From positions 417,001 through 481,000 of the forward strand of contig ONZJ01000002.1 of NCBI GenBank assembly GCA_900313005.1: DNA of 64,000 nucleotides, in the 5' to 3' direction. A model generated the notes under the pieces. The model ran no database searches. It saw only the letters and a list, made by a program, of their open reading frames with translations, and had not been told where the DNA came from. This document shows, piece by piece, positions 2,394-26,262 of this stretch; the stretch's first letter is position 1; each line of letters starts with the position of its first letter. The position numbers and the translations under genes are program-made. This DNA comes from Rhodobacteraceae bacterium EL129 (GTDB lineage: Bacteria > Pseudomonadota > Alphaproteobacteria > Rhodobacterales > Rhodobacteraceae).

Positions 2394-3763
2394 CTGATCA
2401 ACCCTCGCCCAAGGTGCAGATTGGGTCCATCAATCCGCTGAAAGCCCCCGCCGCTGCCCCGATAAATTCCCCCAATCAATGGTCCGTCAAAGCGCCGATG
2501 ATTGTGGGCCTCGTTGGACTGGTGCTGTTGTTGGGCGGGTTTGGCTTGTGGTCGGTGGGTACCAAGATTTCAGGTGCGATTATCGCGGGTGGCCGGATCG
2601 AGGTGGATCAAAACCGCCAAGTCGTTCAGCACCCTGATGGTGGTGTGGTGACCGCAATCAACGTGCGCGAAGGCGATACGGTTGAGGCGGGGCAGGTGTT
2701 GGTAGAACTCGACGCCGCCGAACTGCAATCGCGGCTGTCGATCACCGAAAGCCAGCTGTTTGAGCTTATGGCCCGGCGTGGCCGACTTGAGGCCGAGCGG
2801 GATGAAACAGGCGGCATCACCTTTGATCCGCTTTTGGTCGAGGTGGCCGCCGATAACCCCGATGCGGCTGATCTGATCGCGGGGCAGGAACGGTTGTTGC
2901 AGGCGCGTGCCGATTCAACCGAGCAGGAAATCGACCAGCTGCAAAAGCGGCGCGGTCAGATATTTGAACAGATCAACGGGATCGAAGCACAGCAGACGTC
3001 ACTGAAACGCCAGTTGGAGCTCATCACCGAGGAGCTGGTTGATCAGCAATCCTTGCTGGATCGCGGCCTGGCCCAAGCCACGCGAGTCTTGGCCTTGCAA
3101 CGCGAAGATGCCCGGCTGAGCGGGCAGGCCGGTGAGCTGACGGCACAAAAGGCCCAGGCCCAGGGGCGGATCACTGAGATCGACGTTGAAATCCTCAAAC
3201 TGGGCACGCGCCGCCGCGAAGAGGCGATCTCGAGCTTGCGGGACCTGCAATATCGTGAACTTGAGCTACGCGAAGAGCGCAACGCCCTGATCGAGCGCAT
3301 GCAACGGCTTGAGATCACCTCGCCTGTCAGTGGTGTGGTCTATGGGTTGCGCGTCTTTGCCTTGCAGTCCGTAGTGCGCGCCGCTGATCCGGTGCTCTAT
3401 GTGGTTCCCCAGGACCGTCCGCTGGTCATCAACGCGCAGGTCGAGCCGATTCATATCGACAAGATTTATCTGGGGCAGGATGTGACATTGCGCTTTTCGG
3501 CCCTCGACCAACGCGAAACGCCCGAATTGACAGGGCAGGTGGTGCAAATTTCTGCGGATGCCTTTCAGGATGAAAGCACGCAGCAAAGCTACTACCGCGC
3601 CGAAATCGTGCTGAGCGAGGGCGAGCAGGCCCGCCTTCCCGAAGGTACGACCCTGATCCCCGGCATGCCGGTCGAGGCGTTTATCCGCACCGAAGACCGC
3701 ACGCCTATAGCCTATTTGCTGAAGCCTCTGACGGACTACTTTGCAAAGGCGCTGCGGGACTGA
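2390..3763 (+). CDS. prtE: HlyD-family type I secretion periplasmic adaptor (PrtE-like)
   Basis: Membrane-fusion protein that bridges the ABC exporter to outer-membrane TolC. There is a short cytoplasmic N-terminus, one transmembrane helix at about residues 36-58 and a beta-barrel/lipoyl half-motif (VVQHPDGGVVTAINVREGD near 80-98). A long alpha-helical coiled coil follows at about 110-305, rich in Glu, Gln, Leu and Arg, and then the second lipoyl half (ITSPVSGVVYGL) and the beta-barrel domain with the GMPVEAFI segment near the end. The length (457) is typical. Translation is probably coupled to the exporter gene through the ATGA overlap. The outer-membrane TolC partner is not in this window. 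Confidence 0.93.
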   Translation: MTDQPSPKVQIGSINPLKAPAAAPINSPNQWSVKAPMIVGLVGLVLLLGGFGLWSVGTKISGAIIAGGRIEVDQNRQVVQHPDGGVVTAINVREGDTVEAGQVLVELDAAELQSRLSITESQLFELMARRGRLEAERDETGGITFDPLLVEVAADNPDAADLIAGQERLLQARADSTEQEIDQLQKRRGQIFEQINGIEAQQTSLKRQLELITEELVDQQSLLDRGLAQATRVLALQREDARLSGQAGELTAQKAQAQGRITEIDVEILKLGTRRREEAISSLRDLQYRELELREERNALIERMQRLEITSPVSGVVYGLRVFALQSVVRAADPVLYVVPQDRPLVINAQVEPIHIDKIYLGQDVTLRFSALDQRETPELTGQVVQISADAFQDESTQQSYYRAEIVLSEGEQARLPEGTTLIPGMPVEAFIRTEDRTPIAYLLKPLTDYFAKALRD

Positions 3764-3813
3764 AGCCTTTCGGGACAAACCTGAGACATCAATTAGAGGC
3801 GCTTCAAAACCAC

Positions 3814-4539
3814 CTAAATGCGGACCAGGCCCAGAGAAATGGCTTTGGCCACGGCGTGCAGCGTATTGGTTGCACCCAGTTTGAGCCGGGCTCCTTCGAT
3901 GTAGACGCGCAAGGTGTGTTCCGAGATTGACAGCGTTTCGGCCACCTGAGCCCGGGAATATCCCATCGCAAGCAGGGCCATTGCATCCATTTCGCGTGGG
4001 CTGAGGGCCTGAGCGGCCTCGGGCGCGCGATCTGGCTCAAATTCCAAGGCCTTGCGGTTGAATTCATGGGCGATCAGGATCATGTCGCGGCGATGTTCGC
4101 GCACGAACGCCTCCCAATCGGCATCTGTGCAACTGTGACTGACCGAGAAGAGCGCAAACTGTCCATTTGGTCCGCGGATGGGGACTGAATACCCTTGATT
4201 GCCAACACCGTATTCAATCGCTTCTTTTTGGAAGGCGCGTGCCTGTTTGCCCGTCCAGTCAAAACGTTTCCAATCCACCGGGTGAAACCGTTGAAAGCAG
4301 CCCAGAACAACGGGGTCGATTTTCAGATAATCCTGTTTGAGATATCTTTGCACCCACTTTGGATCGTAGGTGCCACAGCCAAATTGATCACCCGAGGCGC
4401 TGACCCAGTGATACACCATGTGATCAATTGCATATAAGTCGCGTAAATTCTCAATGACCTGCTGTAGATCAGCCGGTTCAGACGCGTTTTCCAACGAGCT
4501 CAAGAGGTTGTCCAGCCGCATTGGCGGCGCGGTTTTCAT
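3814..4539 (-). CDS. LuxR-family quorum-sensing transcriptional regulator
   Basis: Acyl-homoserine-lactone-type receptor and DNA-binding regulator. The N-terminal autoinducer domain has the conserved residues of the TraR/LuxR pocket in the expected spacing (Trp62, Tyr66, Asp75, Pro76, Trp90, Gly116). The C-terminal LuxR helix-turn-helix (about 172-236) has LSPREMDAMALLAMGYS and SEHTLRVYIEGARLKLGA. The length (241) is normal. The start is supported by a GGGGAAGGA Shine-Dalgarno 10 nt upstream. That start lies inside a small ORF on the same strand, so the two overlap by 62 bases in different frames. No luxI synthase is adjacent, which makes this a solo or distal-partner regulator. It is convergent with the exporter adaptor gene, with a 50-base gap. 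Confidence 0.92.
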   Translation of the reverse strand: MKTAPPMRLDNLLSSLENASEPADLQQVIENLRDLYAIDHMVYHWVSASGDQFGCGTYDPKWVQRYLKQDYLKIDPVVLGCFQRFHPVDWKRFDWTGKQARAFQKEAIEYGVGNQGYSVPIRGPNGQFALFSVSHSCTDADWEAFVREHRRDMILIAHEFNRKALEFEPDRAPEAAQALSPREMDAMALLAMGYSRAQVAETLSISEHTLRVYIEGARLKLGATNTLHAVAKAISLGLVRI

Positions 4540-4687
4540 GCGTCGGTATTCCTTCCCCCATCAACGCAAGTTCGGTCGCAGCCAACAGCCTGGTGTCATC
4601 CAGTTGCTCGGCTAAAACGGCCAAACCATTTTTCTGTGCGAAAGTTTTAAGATCGGACAGAACGTCGAGAATCCATTCATTTTGCAT
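4478..4687 (-). CDS. Small luxR-associated conserved protein
   Basis: A 69-residue soluble, mostly helical protein that begins MQNEWILDVLSDLKTFA and continues with LAEQLDDTRLLAATELA. From memory, short proteins of this type recur next to luxR genes in Roseobacter-group genomes; I know no assigned function. It is the first gene of the luxR transcript, with its 3' end overlapping the luxR start by 62 bases, longer than the usual few-base coupling. That suggests translational coupling or modulation of luxR. A TTAA-N7-TTAA box lies 23 nt upstream of its start. The clean frame, conserved-looking helix and position favour a real gene over a shadow. Confidence 0.75.
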   Translation of the reverse strand: MQNEWILDVLSDLKTFAQKNGLAVLAEQLDDTRLLAATELALMGEGIPTHENRAANAAGQPLELVGKRV

Positions 4688-4709
4688 GAGTTACTCTCTT
4701 TAGCGATAG

Positions 4710-4724
4710 TTAACGAAAGGTTAA
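4710..4724. promoter_or_regulatory. CtrA-type box (TTAA-N7-TTAA)
   Basis: TTAACGAAAGGTTAA matches the alphaproteobacterial CtrA consensus of two TTAA half-sites separated by seven bases, and sits just upstream of the small ORF/luxR transcript. CtrA and LuxR circuits are known to be linked in Rhodobacterales. That this particular site is used is inference. Confidence 0.5.
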
Positions 4725-4836
4725 TTCAAGTATAGCGTGTGGAAATAAATTCAGACACTCGCAAATTTCTACTCCCCCAAAATAGCGGGGTAGGCCCGAC
4801 CTAAGTCATTGAAATTACGTAATCGGTACACATAAA

Positions 4837-4870
4837 GTCGCCTGCGACGTTAGAAAACGGCGCAGGCGAC
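4837..4870 (-). terminator. Hairpin terminator downstream of ccrA
   Basis: A perfect 10-bp stem (GTCGCCTGCG / CGCAGGCGAC) with a 14-base loop starts 25 nt after the ccrA stop. Read on the minus strand it is followed by TTTATGT, a weak U tract. It separates ccrA from the luxR transcription unit, which runs in the same direction. Confidence 0.65.
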
Positions 4871-4894
4871 CAGGTTTTTGATTGGTTAAAATCT

Positions 4895-6184
4895 TTACGA
4901 TTTATCAGCGTTCAGCACGTCCTCAACGGTGCGCAGACCCGTCTTGGGCGATTGCACCAGCACCGCCATGTTGCCGGGTTTATGCTCGTTGCGCAGCATT
5001 TTCATATGCGCCTCGGGCAGTTCGGCCCAGGTGAACACTTCGGACATGCACGGGTCCAGCCGCTCCTCAAGCATCAGACGGTTCGCGGACGCGGCTTGCT
5101 TGAGATGGGCAAAGTGGCTGCCCTGCAGACGCTTCTGGTGCATCCACATGTAACGCACATCAAAGGTACAGTTGAACCCTGTGGTGCCCGCACAGATCAC
5201 AACCATGCCACCTTTTTTGCATACGAAGGTCGAGACGGGGAATGTGCTTTCGCCAGGGTGTTCAAAGACCATGTCGACATTATTGCCCTTGCCGGTGATG
5301 TCCCAGATCGCCTTGCCGAACTTACGCACTTCCTTGAACCACTCGGCGTACTCGGGCGTGTTCACCGTGGGCAACTGACCCCAGCAATTGAAATCTTTGC
5401 GGTTGATCACGCCTTTGGCGCCCAGACTCATGACAAAGTCGCGCTTGTCTTCGTCGCTGATCACGCCGATGGCGTGGGCGCCTGCCGCCTTGGCGAGCTG
5501 GATCGCGTAGGACCCCAGACCGCCCGAAGCGCCCCAGACCAGAACAGTCTGGCCGGGCTTCAGATCGTGAGGCGCGTGACCAAAGAGCATGCGATACGCT
5601 GTGGCCAGCGTCAGCGTGTAGCAGGCGCTTTCTTCCCAGGTCAGGTGTTTGGGGCGCGGCATCAGCTGCTGAGCTTGCACATTGGTGAACTGCGCGAAGG
5701 ATCCATCGGGGGTCTCATAGCCCCAGATGCGCTGGCTGGTGGAATACATCGGATCGCCACCATTGCATTCTTCGTCATCGCCGCTGTCCTGGTTGCAGTG
5801 GATCACCACCTCGTCACCAACTTTCCAGCGGGTGACTTTATCGCCCACGGCCCAAACGATGCCCGAGGCATCCGAGCCTGCGATGTGGAAATCTGCGCCA
5901 TGCACATCAAACATGCTGATCGGCACACCCAGGCCTGCCCAGATACCGTTGTAATTGACGCCCGCGGCCATCACCAGAACCAGCACTTCGCTGCTGTCCA
6001 GCGTAGGCACGTCCACCACTTCCAATTGCTGGGCCACGTTTGGTTCGCCCTGGCGATCACGGCGAATGGCCCAGGCGTGCATCTGCTTGGGTACAAATCC
6101 CAGAGGGGGCATTTCACCCATGTCATAAAGGTCTTTCTCGGGAGCGTCGTAAGAGGGGAACCCTGTTTCGGTGTCCAGTGCCAT
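4895..6184 (-). CDS. ccrA: Crotonyl-CoA carboxylase/reductase
   Basis: Reductive carboxylation of crotonyl-CoA with NADPH and CO2 to ethylmalonyl-CoA, the signature step of the ethylmalonyl-CoA pathway for growth on acetate and other C2-yielding substrates. It is a cytoplasmic MDR-superfamily enzyme of 429 residues, the usual length. Visible features are the N-terminal family block (WAIRRDRQGEPN), the CNQDSGDDEECNGGDPM insert typical of Ccr, the nucleotide-binding WGASGGLGSYAIQLAKAAGA, and FEHPGESTFPVS plus MHQKRLQGSHFA of the CO2/CoA pocket. A CTAGGAGG ribosome site precedes the ATG. It lies near ecm, which acts two steps later in the same pathway, and shares an upstream motif with it. Confidence 0.97.
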   Translation of the reverse strand: MALDTETGFPSYDAPEKDLYDMGEMPPLGFVPKQMHAWAIRRDRQGEPNVAQQLEVVDVPTLDSSEVLVLVMAAGVNYNGIWAGLGVPISMFDVHGADFHIAGSDASGIVWAVGDKVTRWKVGDEVVIHCNQDSGDDEECNGGDPMYSTSQRIWGYETPDGSFAQFTNVQAQQLMPRPKHLTWEESACYTLTLATAYRMLFGHAPHDLKPGQTVLVWGASGGLGSYAIQLAKAAGAHAIGVISDEDKRDFVMSLGAKGVINRKDFNCWGQLPTVNTPEYAEWFKEVRKFGKAIWDITGKGNNVDMVFEHPGESTFPVSTFVCKKGGMVVICAGTTGFNCTFDVRYMWMHQKRLQGSHFAHLKQAASANRLMLEERLDPCMSEVFTWAELPEAHMKMLRNEHKPGNMAVLVQSPKTGLRTVEDVLNADKS

Positions 6185-6210
6185 GTTGGCCTCCTAGGTT
6201 TGTCAAAATT

Positions 6211-6222
6211 GCCGCAATGCAG
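6211..6222. promoter_or_regulatory. Shared motif GCCGCAATGCAG upstream of ccrA
   Basis: GCCGCAATGCAG, 27 nt before the ccrA start, matches GCCGCATTGCAG upstream of ecm in 11 of 12 positions. The two genes act in the same pathway, so a common regulator site is plausible. RamB/PccR-type (ScfR family) regulators control this pathway in relatives, but I cannot assign the site to one. Confidence 0.35.
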
Positions 6223-6336
6223 AATCGTTGCTTGCGTTTGAAATACCATGGACGCGCAACAATGCAATGCCTTGGGGCGATTTTTTGTAACTTTATAACC
6301 GTGCAGTTGCAGAAAGATCAGCGAATATGCGCTGCA

Positions 6337-7689
6337 TTAGCGAAAGAGATGCGCGATGGAGTTCGCGTAATACTCCAGCAGAGGCCGGTCTTCTTCGTTG
6401 ATTGTGATCCCGTCAGGGCCATCGGAGACAAATCTACGTTTGCGCAACATCCGCAAGCCCACTTCGGCGGTGTATTGGATATCACCGCGGGCGATATGGA
6501 TATGCGCTTGCGGCATGTCTTCCATGACGCTTGCCATCTGTGCATCGACGGCGTCCTGAGAAATGGGCCCCTCTGCATTCAACAGGATATGCGCAACCAG
6601 CGGCGTGGGCAGTACCGGAACCTCATCACCGATACGGGTCATCAAAAGCCGCCCCAGGTCTTTGACGTCGCCGCGCGGGTGGGTGCGGCGAAACTCTGAC
6701 AAGGCCACTGGCGCGCCAAAGCTGACAGCAGCATACCCATGGCGGTGATACTGTCGTGTCAGGCGCAGCCAGTTTTGTTTGATGAACCATGCGGCGACAA
6801 CGCTGATGCGGGCCCGAAACCGTCGTTCCCCCTTTTGACCGGCACTGACCAAGATGCGGTCTTCCAGCACACGGTCATAGTTGAGGGCAACGGGGACAAA
6901 GACGACATCACGCGTGGTCTCGTCCTCGCGGCCATCCACTACATATTTCAGTAGGCCCAGCTTGGGTGGTGCCAATGCGCCATCCAAGGACAGCCCGCCT
7001 TCGGGGAAAATCGCCTGTGTCACGCCGCCGTCCGTGGCCAGTTGCACATAGCGTTCCAGCACCCGGCGGTAGAGATCATTGCGCGATTTTCGGCGAATGA
7101 AATAGGCGCCCATCGCTTTGATCAGCTTCGACAATGGCCAGACCCGCGCCCATTCCCCGACCGCGTACGAAAGGGCCGAGCGTTCTGCGGCCAACCAGGT
7201 GACCAGAACGTAATCCATATTACTGCGGTGGTTCATCACAAAGATCACCGTGGCATCCTTGTCGACATCGCGCAGAGCGTCTTCGCTGAAATGCCCAAGC
7301 CGAACGCGATAGAGCGAGCGGCTGACGAATTTGGCAAAACGGATCGCGATACCGAAATAGGCAGTGGCTGAAAACCCGGGCACAATCTCGCGGGCATAGC
7401 GTTTGGCCTGCTCAAAGGCCACATTTTCAGGCAGACCTTCAGTTTTGGCGTGTTCGGCCACTGCTTTGCTGACTTCGGGATCATAGATCAGACGCTGGAT
7501 CATGTCATAGCGTCGCGCCAGCTTGAACGGTTCAATCGGGCGCTGAAGTTTTTCATTCAGGCGCTTAACGGCGCGTTCCATGCGGCGACGGAAAAACCAC
7601 CGAACGGATGGAAATAGAAAATGCGAGGCCATCGTTACTGCTGCAAATGCCACCAGCAGGATCAGCGCCCACAAAGGCATTTCAACCAT
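6337..7689 (-). CDS. 1-acyl-glycerol-3-phosphate/GPAT-like membrane acyltransferase
   Basis: Probable membrane-bound phospholipid acyltransferase of the PlsB/PlsC superfamily, transferring acyl groups to glycerol-3-phosphate or its lyso form. There is one N-terminal membrane helix (WALILLVAFAAVTMASHFLF). The acyltransferase motifs follow in order: HX4D in MNHRSNMDYVL, a GAYFIRR block, FPEGGLSLDG, and a later VPVALNYDRV. At roughly 450 residues it is longer than PlsC and shorter than E. coli PlsB. The frame is open further upstream; three ATGs lie close together at 7698, 7689 and 7680, and I chose the middle one because GGGA precedes it. The pathway link to flanking ccrA and ecm is not obvious. 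Confidence 0.85.
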   Translation of the reverse strand: MVEMPLWALILLVAFAAVTMASHFLFPSVRWFFRRRMERAVKRLNEKLQRPIEPFKLARRYDMIQRLIYDPEVSKAVAEHAKTEGLPENVAFEQAKRYAREIVPGFSATAYFGIAIRFAKFVSRSLYRVRLGHFSEDALRDVDKDATVIFVMNHRSNMDYVLVTWLAAERSALSYAVGEWARVWPLSKLIKAMGAYFIRRKSRNDLYRRVLERYVQLATDGGVTQAIFPEGGLSLDGALAPPKLGLLKYVVDGREDETTRDVVFVPVALNYDRVLEDRILVSAGQKGERRFRARISVVAAWFIKQNWLRLTRQYHRHGYAAVSFGAPVALSEFRRTHPRGDVKDLGRLLMTRIGDEVPVLPTPLVAHILLNAEGPISQDAVDAQMASVMEDMPQAHIHIARGDIQYTAEVGLRMLRKRRFVSDGPDGITINEEDRPLLEYYANSIAHLFR

Positions 7690-24244: not shown

Positions 24245-24280
24245 TAAGAGCGCGCAACCCATCGGCTGCGCGCTCTTTTA
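24245..24280 (+). terminator. Intrinsic terminator after trpS
   Basis: A perfect 11-bp stem AAGAGCGCGCA/TGCGCGCTCTT with a 10-base loop is followed by TTACA, 24 nt after the trpS stop. The A-rich and T-rich flanks make it bidirectional, so it may also end the YkgB-like gene from the other side. Confidence 0.85.
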
Positions 24281-24303
24281 CATGTGCGTAAGTGGTATTG
24301 GGA

Positions 24304-24774
24304 TCAGGCGCGGATAGCGTCACGCAGGGCCCAGATGGACGCCGCGAGCAGGACGATATCTTTCAGCAGGAACTGACCGGGCAGAACCGAGATGGCCAGA
24401 GTGCCGTGATCGGGGATGAAAACACCCGGCGTGCTGAGGAAGAAGCTGGTGGTCACAAGGAAGGTCCCTATGGCGCCCATGGCCCCCACCACGGCCAGTT
24501 TCGGTGCGACAAAGCGCAGGGCCAGAAGGACGGCGATGATCAGCTCGGTTGTGCCGATGAGGTTAGACACGGCCTGCACGCTGAGGATGTTATAGACCCA
24601 GCCCAGAAATGGGCTGTTGGCCACTAGGCCCTCAATGGCGCCGGCCTCGTAGGCGGTGAATTTCATGGCACCGAACCAGAGGAACACCAGGGGCAAGGCG
24701 ACAAAGATGGCTTTGTCGGCCAATGTGTCCAGAAGACGCGATTGGGCTGGAGTATTCAGATCATAAGTTGTCAT
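24304..24774 (-). CDS. YkgB/RclC-like (DUF417) membrane protein
   Basis: A 156-residue inner-membrane protein with four hydrophobic segments. It begins with a polar stretch, then FVALPLVFLWFGAMKFTAYEA (the DUF417 signature), SPFLGWVY, GTTELIIAVLLALRF and a C-terminal LKDIVLLAAS. The E. coli homologue YkgB (RclC) belongs to the reactive-chlorine resistance operon; that this one does the same is inference. An exact copy of the operator found before the TetR gene lies 27-45 nt upstream of the start, so the TetR protein probably controls it. GGGAACC precedes the ATG. Confidence 0.85.
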   Translation of the reverse strand: MTTYDLNTPAQSRLLDTLADKAIFVALPLVFLWFGAMKFTAYEAGAIEGLVANSPFLGWVYNILSVQAVSNLIGTTELIIAVLLALRFVAPKLAVVGAMGAIGTFLVTTSFFLSTPGVFIPDHGTLAISVLPGQFLLKDIVLLAASIWALRDAIRA

Positions 24775-24800
24775 TGTCAGGGTTCCCTTCAGACGTTTTA

Positions 24801-24819
24801 GTTACGGACCGATTGGTCA
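24801..24819. promoter_or_regulatory. TetR-type operator, copy 1 (upstream of the YkgB-like gene)
   Basis: GTTACGGACCGATTGGTCA, identical in all 19 positions to the copy beside the TetR gene. The centre GACC-GATT-GGTC is a dyad, as usual for TetR-family operators. Confidence 0.7.
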
Positions 24820-24838
24820 CATTTGAGGCAAAAGAAAA

Positions 24839-25000
24839 TCAGTGCGCGTGTGTGGCAGAATATCCGGCGGCTAGGGCAGCGTGGGCCAACCCGCGGGGGC
24901 CCGTGTCTGCACGACGCGACAGGCGGATCAGGATGGCATCAAGCTGTTCGATCTCGGCCAATTCGGCGCTGGTGGGGTATGATGTGGGAAAGCGGTTCAT
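24839..25000 (-). CDS. Small protein of 53 residues, unrecognised
   Basis: Reading the minus strand from the ATG at 25000 gives MNRFPTSYPTSAELAEIEQL, then a helical charged stretch with LIRLSRRADTG and an Ala/His-rich end before TGA. AGGAGA lies upstream at a usable distance. The SYPTSAELAEIE start resembles short helical proteins I have seen in Rhodobacter-type genomes, but I cannot name a family with certainty. It lies between the two operator copies, in the same direction as the YkgB-like gene, so it is probably under the same TetR control. Too short for a confident call. Confidence 0.5.
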   Translation of the reverse strand: MNRFPTSYPTSAELAEIEQLDAILIRLSRRADTGPRGLAHAALAAGYSATHAH

Positions 25001-25043
25001 GGATCATGTCTCCTGTCGGTTGTGACTTTATGAAGATGCGCTG

Positions 25044-25072
25044 TTGCATCGTTGATGTGACTGGCATATATC
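25044..25072 (+). promoter_or_regulatory. Sigma-70-type promoter of the TetR gene
   Basis: TTGCAT, 17-base spacer, TATATC. The operator starts at the very next base, over the expected transcription start, which is the arrangement for autorepression. Confidence 0.5.
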
Positions 25073-25091
25073 GTTACGGACCGATTGGTCA
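25073..25091. promoter_or_regulatory. TetR-type operator, copy 2 (at the TetR gene start site)
   Basis: GTTACGGACCGATTGGTCA, the second exact copy. It sits between the divergent TetR gene and the 53-residue gene, so one bound repressor could close both. Confidence 0.7.
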
Positions 25092-25138
25092 ACAATATGA
25101 AGCGCATATTTCAAAAACCTCACGGAAACGAGATAATC

Positions 25139-25675
25139 ATGGCGAGACCCCGCAGTTTTGATCCCGATGAAACCCTGTTGCAGCTCAAGGCGCTTTTCTG
25201 GGCGCAGGGTTTTGACGGGGCCTCGATGAGCGACATTGAAGAGGCCACAGGGCTTAACAAACAAAGCCTGTATCGTCAGTGGGGGGATAAACGGCGGATG
25301 TATCTGGCTGCGTTGCAGTCTTATGCCCGCGAAGAGATGACAGCCGCCGCCAAGATCCTGAATGGCGCTGGTACTCCACGTGAGAAAATGGAGAGATTGT
25401 TTTTGGGTGCCGCTCAGGAGGCCGACCCGCGGGGCTGTTTTTTGTGCAATGCGAGCATTGATCAGGCGCAAGCGGATCAGGATACGCGCCAGGCGGTTCT
25501 GGCAATGATGGCAGCCACATTGCAGGCGTTTGAGGCAGCCTTGCCGTCTGATCACAAACATAAAGCGGCTGCACTGCAGGCCAATTACCACGGGTTGCGG
25601 GTCATGGCGGCGGCGGGTCTGCCGCGCGAGGTGTTGTTGAACGTGGCAGAAGGTGCATTGTCACAGGTGCCATAG
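25139..25675 (+). CDS. TetR/AcrR-family repressor with a CxxC-type pair
   Basis: A 178-residue one-component regulator. The N-terminal helix-turn-helix reads ARPRSFDPDETLLQLKALFW, then MSDIEEATGLNKQSLYRQWGDKRRMYL. The C-terminal domain has RGCFLCNASID at 99-109, with Cys100 and Cys103. A GC(F/L)xxN segment is common in this subfamily; the second Cys could allow thiol-based sensing, which would fit a YkgB/RclC-type target, but that is inference. I chose the ATG at 25139 because the HTH begins there and the two operators then lie upstream. It is probably autoregulated and controls the divergent small gene and the YkgB-like gene. Confidence 0.9.
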   Translation: MARPRSFDPDETLLQLKALFWAQGFDGASMSDIEEATGLNKQSLYRQWGDKRRMYLAALQSYAREEMTAAAKILNGAGTPREKMERLFLGAAQEADPRGCFLCNASIDQAQADQDTRQAVLAMMAATLQAFEAALPSDHKHKAAALQANYHGLRVMAAAGLPREVLLNVAEGALSQVP

Positions 25676-25693
25676 GGTCTCTGTGCACCTGTG
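25662..25693. other. 9-bp inverted repeat across the TetR gene stop
   Basis: CACAGGTGC and GCACCTGTG form a perfect stem with a 14-base loop that includes the TetR gene's stop codon. No T run follows, so it is either a weak terminator or an RNA-stability hairpin. Confidence 0.35.
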
Positions 25694-25776
25694 CACTTAT
25701 GATCTGCGATTGACGCTTATTGTGCGCGTTGTGATTGTCCCCATATGCTGTGCGAACACCCACAAAGGACCATTCA

Positions 25777-26262
25777 ATGACACAAGGTCTACATCCTCGA
25801 ACATCCATTGGTCATGTCCATCTTAAGGTTGCTGATCTTGATCGCGCCATCGGGTTTTACTCCGGTGTGCTGGGATTTGATGTGCAACAACGCATGGGGA
25901 CGCAAGCCGCGTTTCTGGGCGCAGGTGGCTATCATCATCACATTGGGTTGAATACCTGGGAGTCGGCGGGGGGTACGCCTGCGCCGGCGGGGCATACAGG
26001 GTTGTATCACACTGCGTTTTTATACGCCGACCGGGCAGAATTGGCGGATGCGGTGCGCCGGGTGATTGACGCAGGCTATCCGTTGGAAGGCGCGGCAGAT
26101 CACGGTGTGAGCGAGGCGGTTTACCTGTCCGATCCCGATGGCAATGGCGTTGAGCTCTACCGGGATCGACCCGAGGCGGAATGGCCCCGGGACGCGCAGG
26201 GAAACCTCGCCATGGGGAATGCCCGGCTGGATGTCGAGGCCTTGCTTGCCGAGGCGCCCTGA
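25777..26262 (+). CDS. VOC-family (glyoxalase/extradiol dioxygenase fold) protein
   Basis: A 161-residue metalloprotein fold with paired beta-alpha-beta modules. Metal ligands are visible: His in IGHVHLKVADLDRAIGFYSGVLGF (residue about 13) and Glu in SDPDGNGVELYRDRP near the C-terminus, with GLYHTAFLYADRAEL starting the second module. It resembles the CatE-type catechol-2,3-dioxygenase group, but the substrate is not determinable. The ATG at 25777 has AAAGGA upstream. It follows the TetR gene in the same direction after a hairpin, and could belong to the same stress or detoxification cassette. Confidence 0.88.
   Translation: MTQGLHPRTSIGHVHLKVADLDRAIGFYSGVLGFDVQQRMGTQAAFLGAGGYHHHIGLNTWESAGGTPAPAGHTGLYHTAFLYADRAELADAVRRVIDAGYPLEGAADHGVSEAVYLSDPDGNGVELYRDRPEAEWPRDAQGNLAMGNARLDVEALLAEAP

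Follow-up and report, generated by a model that had tools for sequence, protein, structure and literature searches.

Two members of the DUF417 family of membrane proteins, RclC and RcrB, guard Escherichia coli against hypohalous oxidants. In uropathogenic E. coli, RcrR is described as a TetR repressor inactivated by hypochlorous acid (HOCl), and RcrB, which is HOCl-induced under TetR control, confers HOCl resistance and is needed for it by its strain (PMC9600549). RclC, the DUF417 target of the RclR-RclABC system of E. coli K-12, belongs to defense against HOCl and hypothiocyanous acid (HOSCN), is reported to protect from HOSCN, and contains no cysteine (PMC12096828). As reviewed in PMC7464077, the TetR protein NemR of E. 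coli K-12 responds to reactive chlorine at Cys106. The NemR-like TetR protein AltR of Pantoea ananatis is reported to need Cys100 for its response to thiosulfinates (PMC13178969). Examined here is a 64,000-nucleotide stretch of DNA (the window) from Rhodobacteraceae bacterium EL129 (contig ONZJ01000002.1, positions 417,001 to 481,000), in which a DUF417 gene stands divergent from a gene for a TetR-family repressor with a CXXC motif, with two identical operator-like sites and a short open reading frame (ORF) between them. These elements probably constitute a two-gene, perhaps three-gene, thiol-stress cassette in which the DUF417 gene would be repressed by the TetR protein and released by a thiol-reactive oxidant or electrophile. 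A TetR-controlled, HOCl-induced DUF417 protein is already known from RcrR-RcrB; new here are the NemR-type operators, the CXXC sensor and the divergent layout. The three genes have the coordinates and directions given in an initial annotation of the sequence, and the features are as follows.

24304-24774, minus strand: gene for a DUF417 (YkgB/RclC/RcrB family) inner-membrane protein of 156 amino acids, Pfam PF04224; proposed repressed target
24801-24819, plus strand: candidate operator 1 (O1), exact 19-mer, with a GACC-N4-GGTC core kept in related promoters
24839-25000, minus strand: 53-residue ORF (ORF53) between the two operators, oriented as DUF417; AGGAG and codon score
25044-25072, plus strand: weak promoter-like pair TTGCAT-N17-TATATC facing TetR; pattern once in the window
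25065-25092, minus strand: promoter-like pair TTGACC-N16-TATATG facing ORF53 and DUF417; pattern once in the window, proposed from consensus
25073-25091, plus strand: candidate operator 2 (O2), exact 19-mer, between the divergent promoter-like pairs and the TetR gene
25139-25675, plus strand: gene for a TetR-family repressor of 178 amino acids, TetR_N domain, CXXC = C100-F-L-C103
24246-24282, plus strand: terminator-like hairpin with U run in the gap between trpS and the cassette, from RNA folding

Comparison with described regulators

As in RcrR-RcrB, a TetR repressor with redox cysteines adjoins a DUF417 gene. The E. coli genes, however, form an operon, rcrA-rcrR-rcrB (rcrARB), with a DUF1471 gene, whereas the arrangement here is divergent; identity is 23% for the TetR proteins (over 130 amino acids) and 27% for the DUF417 proteins, and GACC-N4-GGTC was not seen by eye upstream of rcrA. 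RcrR has no CXXC, and of its cysteines C54, C88 and C95 only C95 has a counterpart in the window protein, namely C100.

NemR is the nearer parallel for the operator. The nemR promoter sequence used in the comparison, GACCGACTGGTC, a candidate NemR site, lies 16 bp before the nemR ATG and differs by one base from the window core, GACCGATTGGTC, which is of the form GACC-N4-GGTC. NemR Cys106 is aligned to C100 and the two proteins share a fold (Z 18.6), but NemR serves an ene-reductase and glyoxalase I within one operon, nemRA-gloA, and has a single Cys at the place of the CXXC; the column of its Lys175 holds Ala in the window protein and Arg or Lys in four relatives aligned with it. Identity to NemR is 22% over 142 amino acids, and RcrR and NemR branch, on long branches, apart from the other rows of the tree, an outcome that does not indicate orthology to NemR.

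CifR of Pseudomonas aeruginosa, which answers to epoxides and regulates the cif operon, is the best match to the window protein among solved structures, by sequence as well as by fold (Z 19.8). Its C107 is aligned to C100, but there is no second Cys at the position equivalent to 103, and we know of no DUF417 partner for CifR. RclR differs in being an AraC-family activator of a three-gene operon with RclA and RclB, although its target RclC has 30% identity with the DUF417 protein of the window. AltR, here likened by description only, has a different target cluster and the operator CAATCTAC-N6-GTAGATTG. The cassette appears to work like RcrR-RcrB with a NemR-like operator, its repressor being, by these comparisons, an orthologue of neither RcrR nor NemR.

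The paired operator-like sites

The initial annotation had pointed to an identical 19-mer before the DUF417 gene and at the TetR gene start, and GTTACGGACCGATTGGTCA is indeed present in two exact plus-strand copies, at 24801-24819 and 25073-25091. O1 lies upstream of DUF417, between it and ORF53, 27 bp from the DUF417 ATG; the second site ends 47 bp ahead of the TetR ATG and not at the gene start as had been described. No third site was found in the window at up to three mismatches, and two sites were reached in none of 100 shuffles. Exact matches to the 16-mer ACGGACCGATTGGTCA occur in the whole genome only at O1 and O2; elsewhere a single 1-mismatch site, within an aminotransferase ORF, and four 2-mismatch sites were found, and a wider regulon in the source genome was rejected at this level.

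The promoter-like pair TTGCAT-N17-TATATC stands directly ahead of O2, as annotated, though it agrees with the sigma-70 consensus, by eye, at only 3/6 and 4/6; the opposing TTGACC-N16-TATATG agrees at 5/6 and 4/6, also by eye, and neither is in the promoter-scan output. The -35 element of the opposing pair falls within O2. Since O2 abuts the TetR-facing pair and contains this -35, its occupation could silence transcription in both directions.

Conservation was evaluated among 121 TetR relatives, the window included, drawn from samples of the family and of the genus and from a scan of the collection; the scan yielded the best 80 of 569 loci with an alignment query and no relative with a single-protein query, and the 121 are not all independent, since loci L029 and L088 are apparently one contig. 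Exact GACC-N4-GGTC within 250 bp upstream was found for 10 of the 20 CXXC TetR genes versus 4 of the 101 other relatives, a comparison in which motif and relatedness are confounded because the CXXC proteins are the query's closest relatives; the background density across all loci is 0.079 per kb. Among all 4-mer palindromes with gaps of 0-14, this one ranked top (10 of 21 CXXC promoter regions; runner-up 5), and no palindrome exceeded 3 in 30 shuffled sets. An 18-nt sequence from the O2 neighborhood, GACCGATTGGTCAACAAT, is identical upstream of the TetR gene in G035/L058, where the protein is only about 42% identical. Three DUF417-linked loci (L058, L064 and L089) carry two exact core sites 69-70 bp apart in the shared DUF417/TetR intergenic region, and near-matches lie between the two genes in L080 and L196. 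A search beyond the window thus found the core conserved in related promoters and the full 16-mer not conserved in the genus. This conserved palindrome next to the TetR gene is a candidate operator; the nemR promoter sequence one base away from the window core, and the presence of the core before more distant non-CXXC relatives (L090, L097, L120, L136), suggest that it belongs to a broader NemR-type group.

The CXXC motif and a proposed mechanism

The TetR protein matches PF00440 (TetR_N) at 39.5 bits against a cut-off of 24 (E 4.9e-10), and its structure is predicted with high confidence (predicted local distance difference test, pLDDT, 94.7). Cys100 and Cys103, to which the initial annotation drew attention, are its sole cysteines. 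In the model, a helix (101-108) follows directly on Cys100, such that C-F-L-C opens the helix; the CXXC of thioredoxin likewise starts a helix. Cys100 is present in 120 of the 121 relatives and is aligned to RcrR C95 as well as to the NemR and CifR cysteines, whereas Cys103 is present in 20, with L117 classed as CXXC from its BLAST column only, since the tree alignment shows another context, RCMGC.

In the unstressed cell, a TetR dimer on O1 and O2 would repress DUF417 and its own gene, and ORF53 would likewise be held down through the promoter-like pair at O2 that faces it. Oxidants or electrophiles that attack thiols would modify Cys100; in the simplest case a disulfide would form between Cys100 and Cys103 where helix 101-108 begins, a bond suggested by the position of the two residues in the model. 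The modified TetR protein would then leave the DNA, allowing the DUF417 membrane protein to be made and the cell to be protected as E. coli is by RclC and RcrB. Two relatives, NemR (Cys106, reactive chlorine) and AltR (Cys100, thiosulfinates), lend support to the step in which modification of Cys100 leads to release. RcrR is less clean as support, since its C95S form is reported to bind DNA poorly even when reduced, and in that account no single cysteine is primary for disulfide formation (PMC9600549).

The DUF417 protein and its pairing with TetR genes

The YkgB/RclC-like assignment of the membrane protein was borne out at the family level, with 101.7 bits to PF04224 against a gathering score of 27 (E 4.5e-29); to the NCBIfam RclC model NF040476 it scores 81 bits against a cut-off of 275, and is therefore a family member but not the RclC equivalog. 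It has no cysteine and is 68% identical to a Pseudovibrio protein; its structure prediction, from 3 sequences, is poor (pLDDT 66.5). DUF417 is rare among the genomes sampled, at 2/149 of the family, 2/292 of the order and 8/385 of the class.

The gene is repeatedly found beside CXXC repressors. Within flanks of 1.5 or 4 kb, DUF417 accompanies 5 of the 20 CXXC TetR genes (the window, L011/L058, L025/L064, L080 of Pseudovibrio and L089 of Marinicaulis) versus 0 of the 101 others. A sixth pair, L196, came from a search of the class sample starting from DUF417, and all six pairs are divergent. In a tree of 24 rows, whose bootstrap had yet to stabilize, explaining the DUF417 label takes 5 changes, and well-supported branches force at least 3 of them, which argues that the pairing is scattered and not confined to one lineage. 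Other neighbors of the CXXC group include a glutaredoxin after DUF417 (L064), a pyridine nucleotide-disulphide oxidoreductase (L063), CMD/AhpD-like proteins (L079, and L082, whose TetR has Ala at 103), DM13 (L059, L069, L071), and, after DUF417 in L089, a SnoaL-like protein with a score below cut-off; these assignments do not extend to several CXXC members, among them L014, L017, L060, L068 and L117.

DUF417 is found in other company as well. The closest homologue in the class sample (L193, 66%) has no CXXC TetR within its flank. DUF417 matches occur in 323 plasmid records, which suggests that the gene is often mobile cargo, and six of these neighborhoods were inspected, one of them unannotated. 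The neighbors were AraC regulators with CMD nearby, MsrA with CMD, MarR and cupin, with one neighborhood uninformative; DUF417 is thus associated with regulators of several kinds and repeatedly neighbors CMD or Msr genes. On a Raoultella plasmid (L204, 1499-2926) an MsrA-CMD-DUF417 run has transposase genes on either side, and on a Methylorubrum plasmid (L207, 1785-2908) DUF417 and a MarR-family regulator gene are divergent and lie beside a Tn3-type element, such that another regulator type faces the same target.

A thiol-sensing, oxidant-linked role, as proposed in the initial annotation, fits the near-invariant Cys100, the CXXC and the redox partner families, and TetR-DUF417 pairs occur in five other genomes; the suggested inclusion of a downstream VOC gene in the unit does not hold (see below). 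A more specific proposal, advanced tentatively, is that these proteins form an undescribed TetR group in which helix 6 opens with a thioredoxin-like CXXC and an internal Cys100-Cys103 disulfide serves as the switch (where NemR uses a Cys-Lys bond and RcrR a disulfide between subunits), and that they have repeatedly become partners of DUF417 and further thiol-redox genes with which they share a NemR-type operator, with the orphan ORF53 gained here under the same operator. No description of a CXXC TetR with DUF417 was recognized in the open-license literature, which was incompletely surveyed. Recurrence of the CXXC repressor beside DUF417 in marine and other alphaproteobacteria would mean that thiol-sensing TetR/DUF417 pairing is not limited to neutrophil-facing pathogens. 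The cassette offers a compact and harmless system for testing sensor chemistry and DUF417 function, and the TetR group a natural comparison of Cys100 alone with Cys100-Cys103.

Alternative explanations

Several observations weigh against a thiol-sensing TetR-DUF417 cassette. Cys100 is near-universal in the wider family and by itself tells little; the cysteines of CssR of Corynebacterium glutamicum, at other positions (17 and 58), are reported to be redox-inactive (PMC8176726); and identity to RcrR and NemR is low, as given above. Conservation in the genus does not extend to the full 16-mer: 6 of 83 genomes, counted outside the source, have single 1-mismatch sites, 5 of them within ORFs, and 11 of 21 CXXC TetR promoters, the DM13-linked ones included, have no exact core. 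Some partners are not obviously redox proteins (YHS in L065, a solute-binding protein in L061). Of the 11 DUF417 loci in the class sample, just two, those of the window and of L196, have a CXXC TetR gene no more than 1.5 kb away, and a TetR gene was adjacent at none of the five annotated plasmid DUF417 neighborhoods inspected.

The most serious alternative, though somewhat unlikely, keeps the thiol response and assigns it to Cys100 alone, by a mixed disulfide, an intermolecular disulfide or a Cys-Lys bond as in NemR, RcrR or AltR, with C103 only tuning it. The wide conservation of C100 relative to C103 speaks for this, as does AltR, in which Cys100 is reported to be essential and the other cysteines to tune the response (PMC13178969). 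However, the window protein has Ala where NemR has Lys175, and C100 and C103, its sole cysteines, are separated by one turn at the beginning of a helix, which favors a local disulfide. Less likely still is a ligand-type TetR, in which a small organic molecule (a CifR-like epoxide, an aldehyde or a quinone) bound to the pocket would bring about release and the CXXC would be structural or incidental. CifR is the closest solved structure, and CssR shows that a cysteine-bearing TetR may answer other compounds (PMC8176726). Yet the CXXC group retains C103 alongside partners of redox families at several loci, those DUF417 proteins whose effect is known serve in oxidant defense in the E. coli reports (PMC9600549, PMC12096828), and CifR C107, aligned to C100, is mutated in the CifR structures, so that ligand and thiol sensing are not mutually exclusive. 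Finally, the operators may be real but the cassette a recent import, silent or deregulated in the source strain. The rarity of DUF417, the lack of a cassette in the trpS-VOC interval of other genomes of the genus and the weak promoter-like pairs would agree with this, but both sites are letter-perfect, none of the three ORFs is disrupted and their codon use is coding-like; a silent import is the least probable of these explanations. The preferred reading is a TetR-repressed DUF417 gene released through the CXXC cysteines.

ORF53 and the neighboring genes

The 53-residue gene proposed in the initial annotation has a coding appearance: its ATG is preceded by AGGAG, and 118 out of 119 shadow ORFs have a lower codon score, as does VOC. 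Relatives were, however, absent from the plasmid collection and, in overlapping samples, from the 82 further genomes of the genus and the 294 further genomes of the family sample. As a copy of a known protein it was rejected, with no Pfam or NCBIfam match above cut-off. ORF53 is probably a gene, and possibly a new one. In L064, L080 and L089 the gap from the DUF417 ORF to the TetR ORF measures only about 120-145 bp, leaving no room for it in those pairs. Two collinear 15-mers are common to the strand opposite ORF53 (24884-24934) and TetR coding DNA (25420-25483); this likeness, noticed post hoc, is barely above shuffles (13/500 and 2/500 reach its alignment score), and is either a relic or chance.

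The hairpin at 24246-24282, after trpS, folds with -23.4 kcal/mol (z -4.04) and was not reported by the terminator scan. The VOC gene was rejected as a cassette member, since it is common in the genus (55 of 83 genomes) and lies beside trpS elsewhere with no cassette, at 100-190 bp in four loci (L160, L161, L182, L187). Five further loci have trpS near VOC at larger gaps, for 9 of 29 VOC loci in all. By tblastn, neither the cassette TetR, DUF417 nor ORF53 was found within about 1.5 kb in the 29 VOC loci searched, from the 54 other genomes with a match. In one VOC locus of another member of the genus (L071, genome G229, 3656-6871), a different CXXC TetR gene and a divergent DM13 gene stand between VOC and an aminotransferase gene; the VOC neighborhood has thus acquired more than one redox-type TetR.

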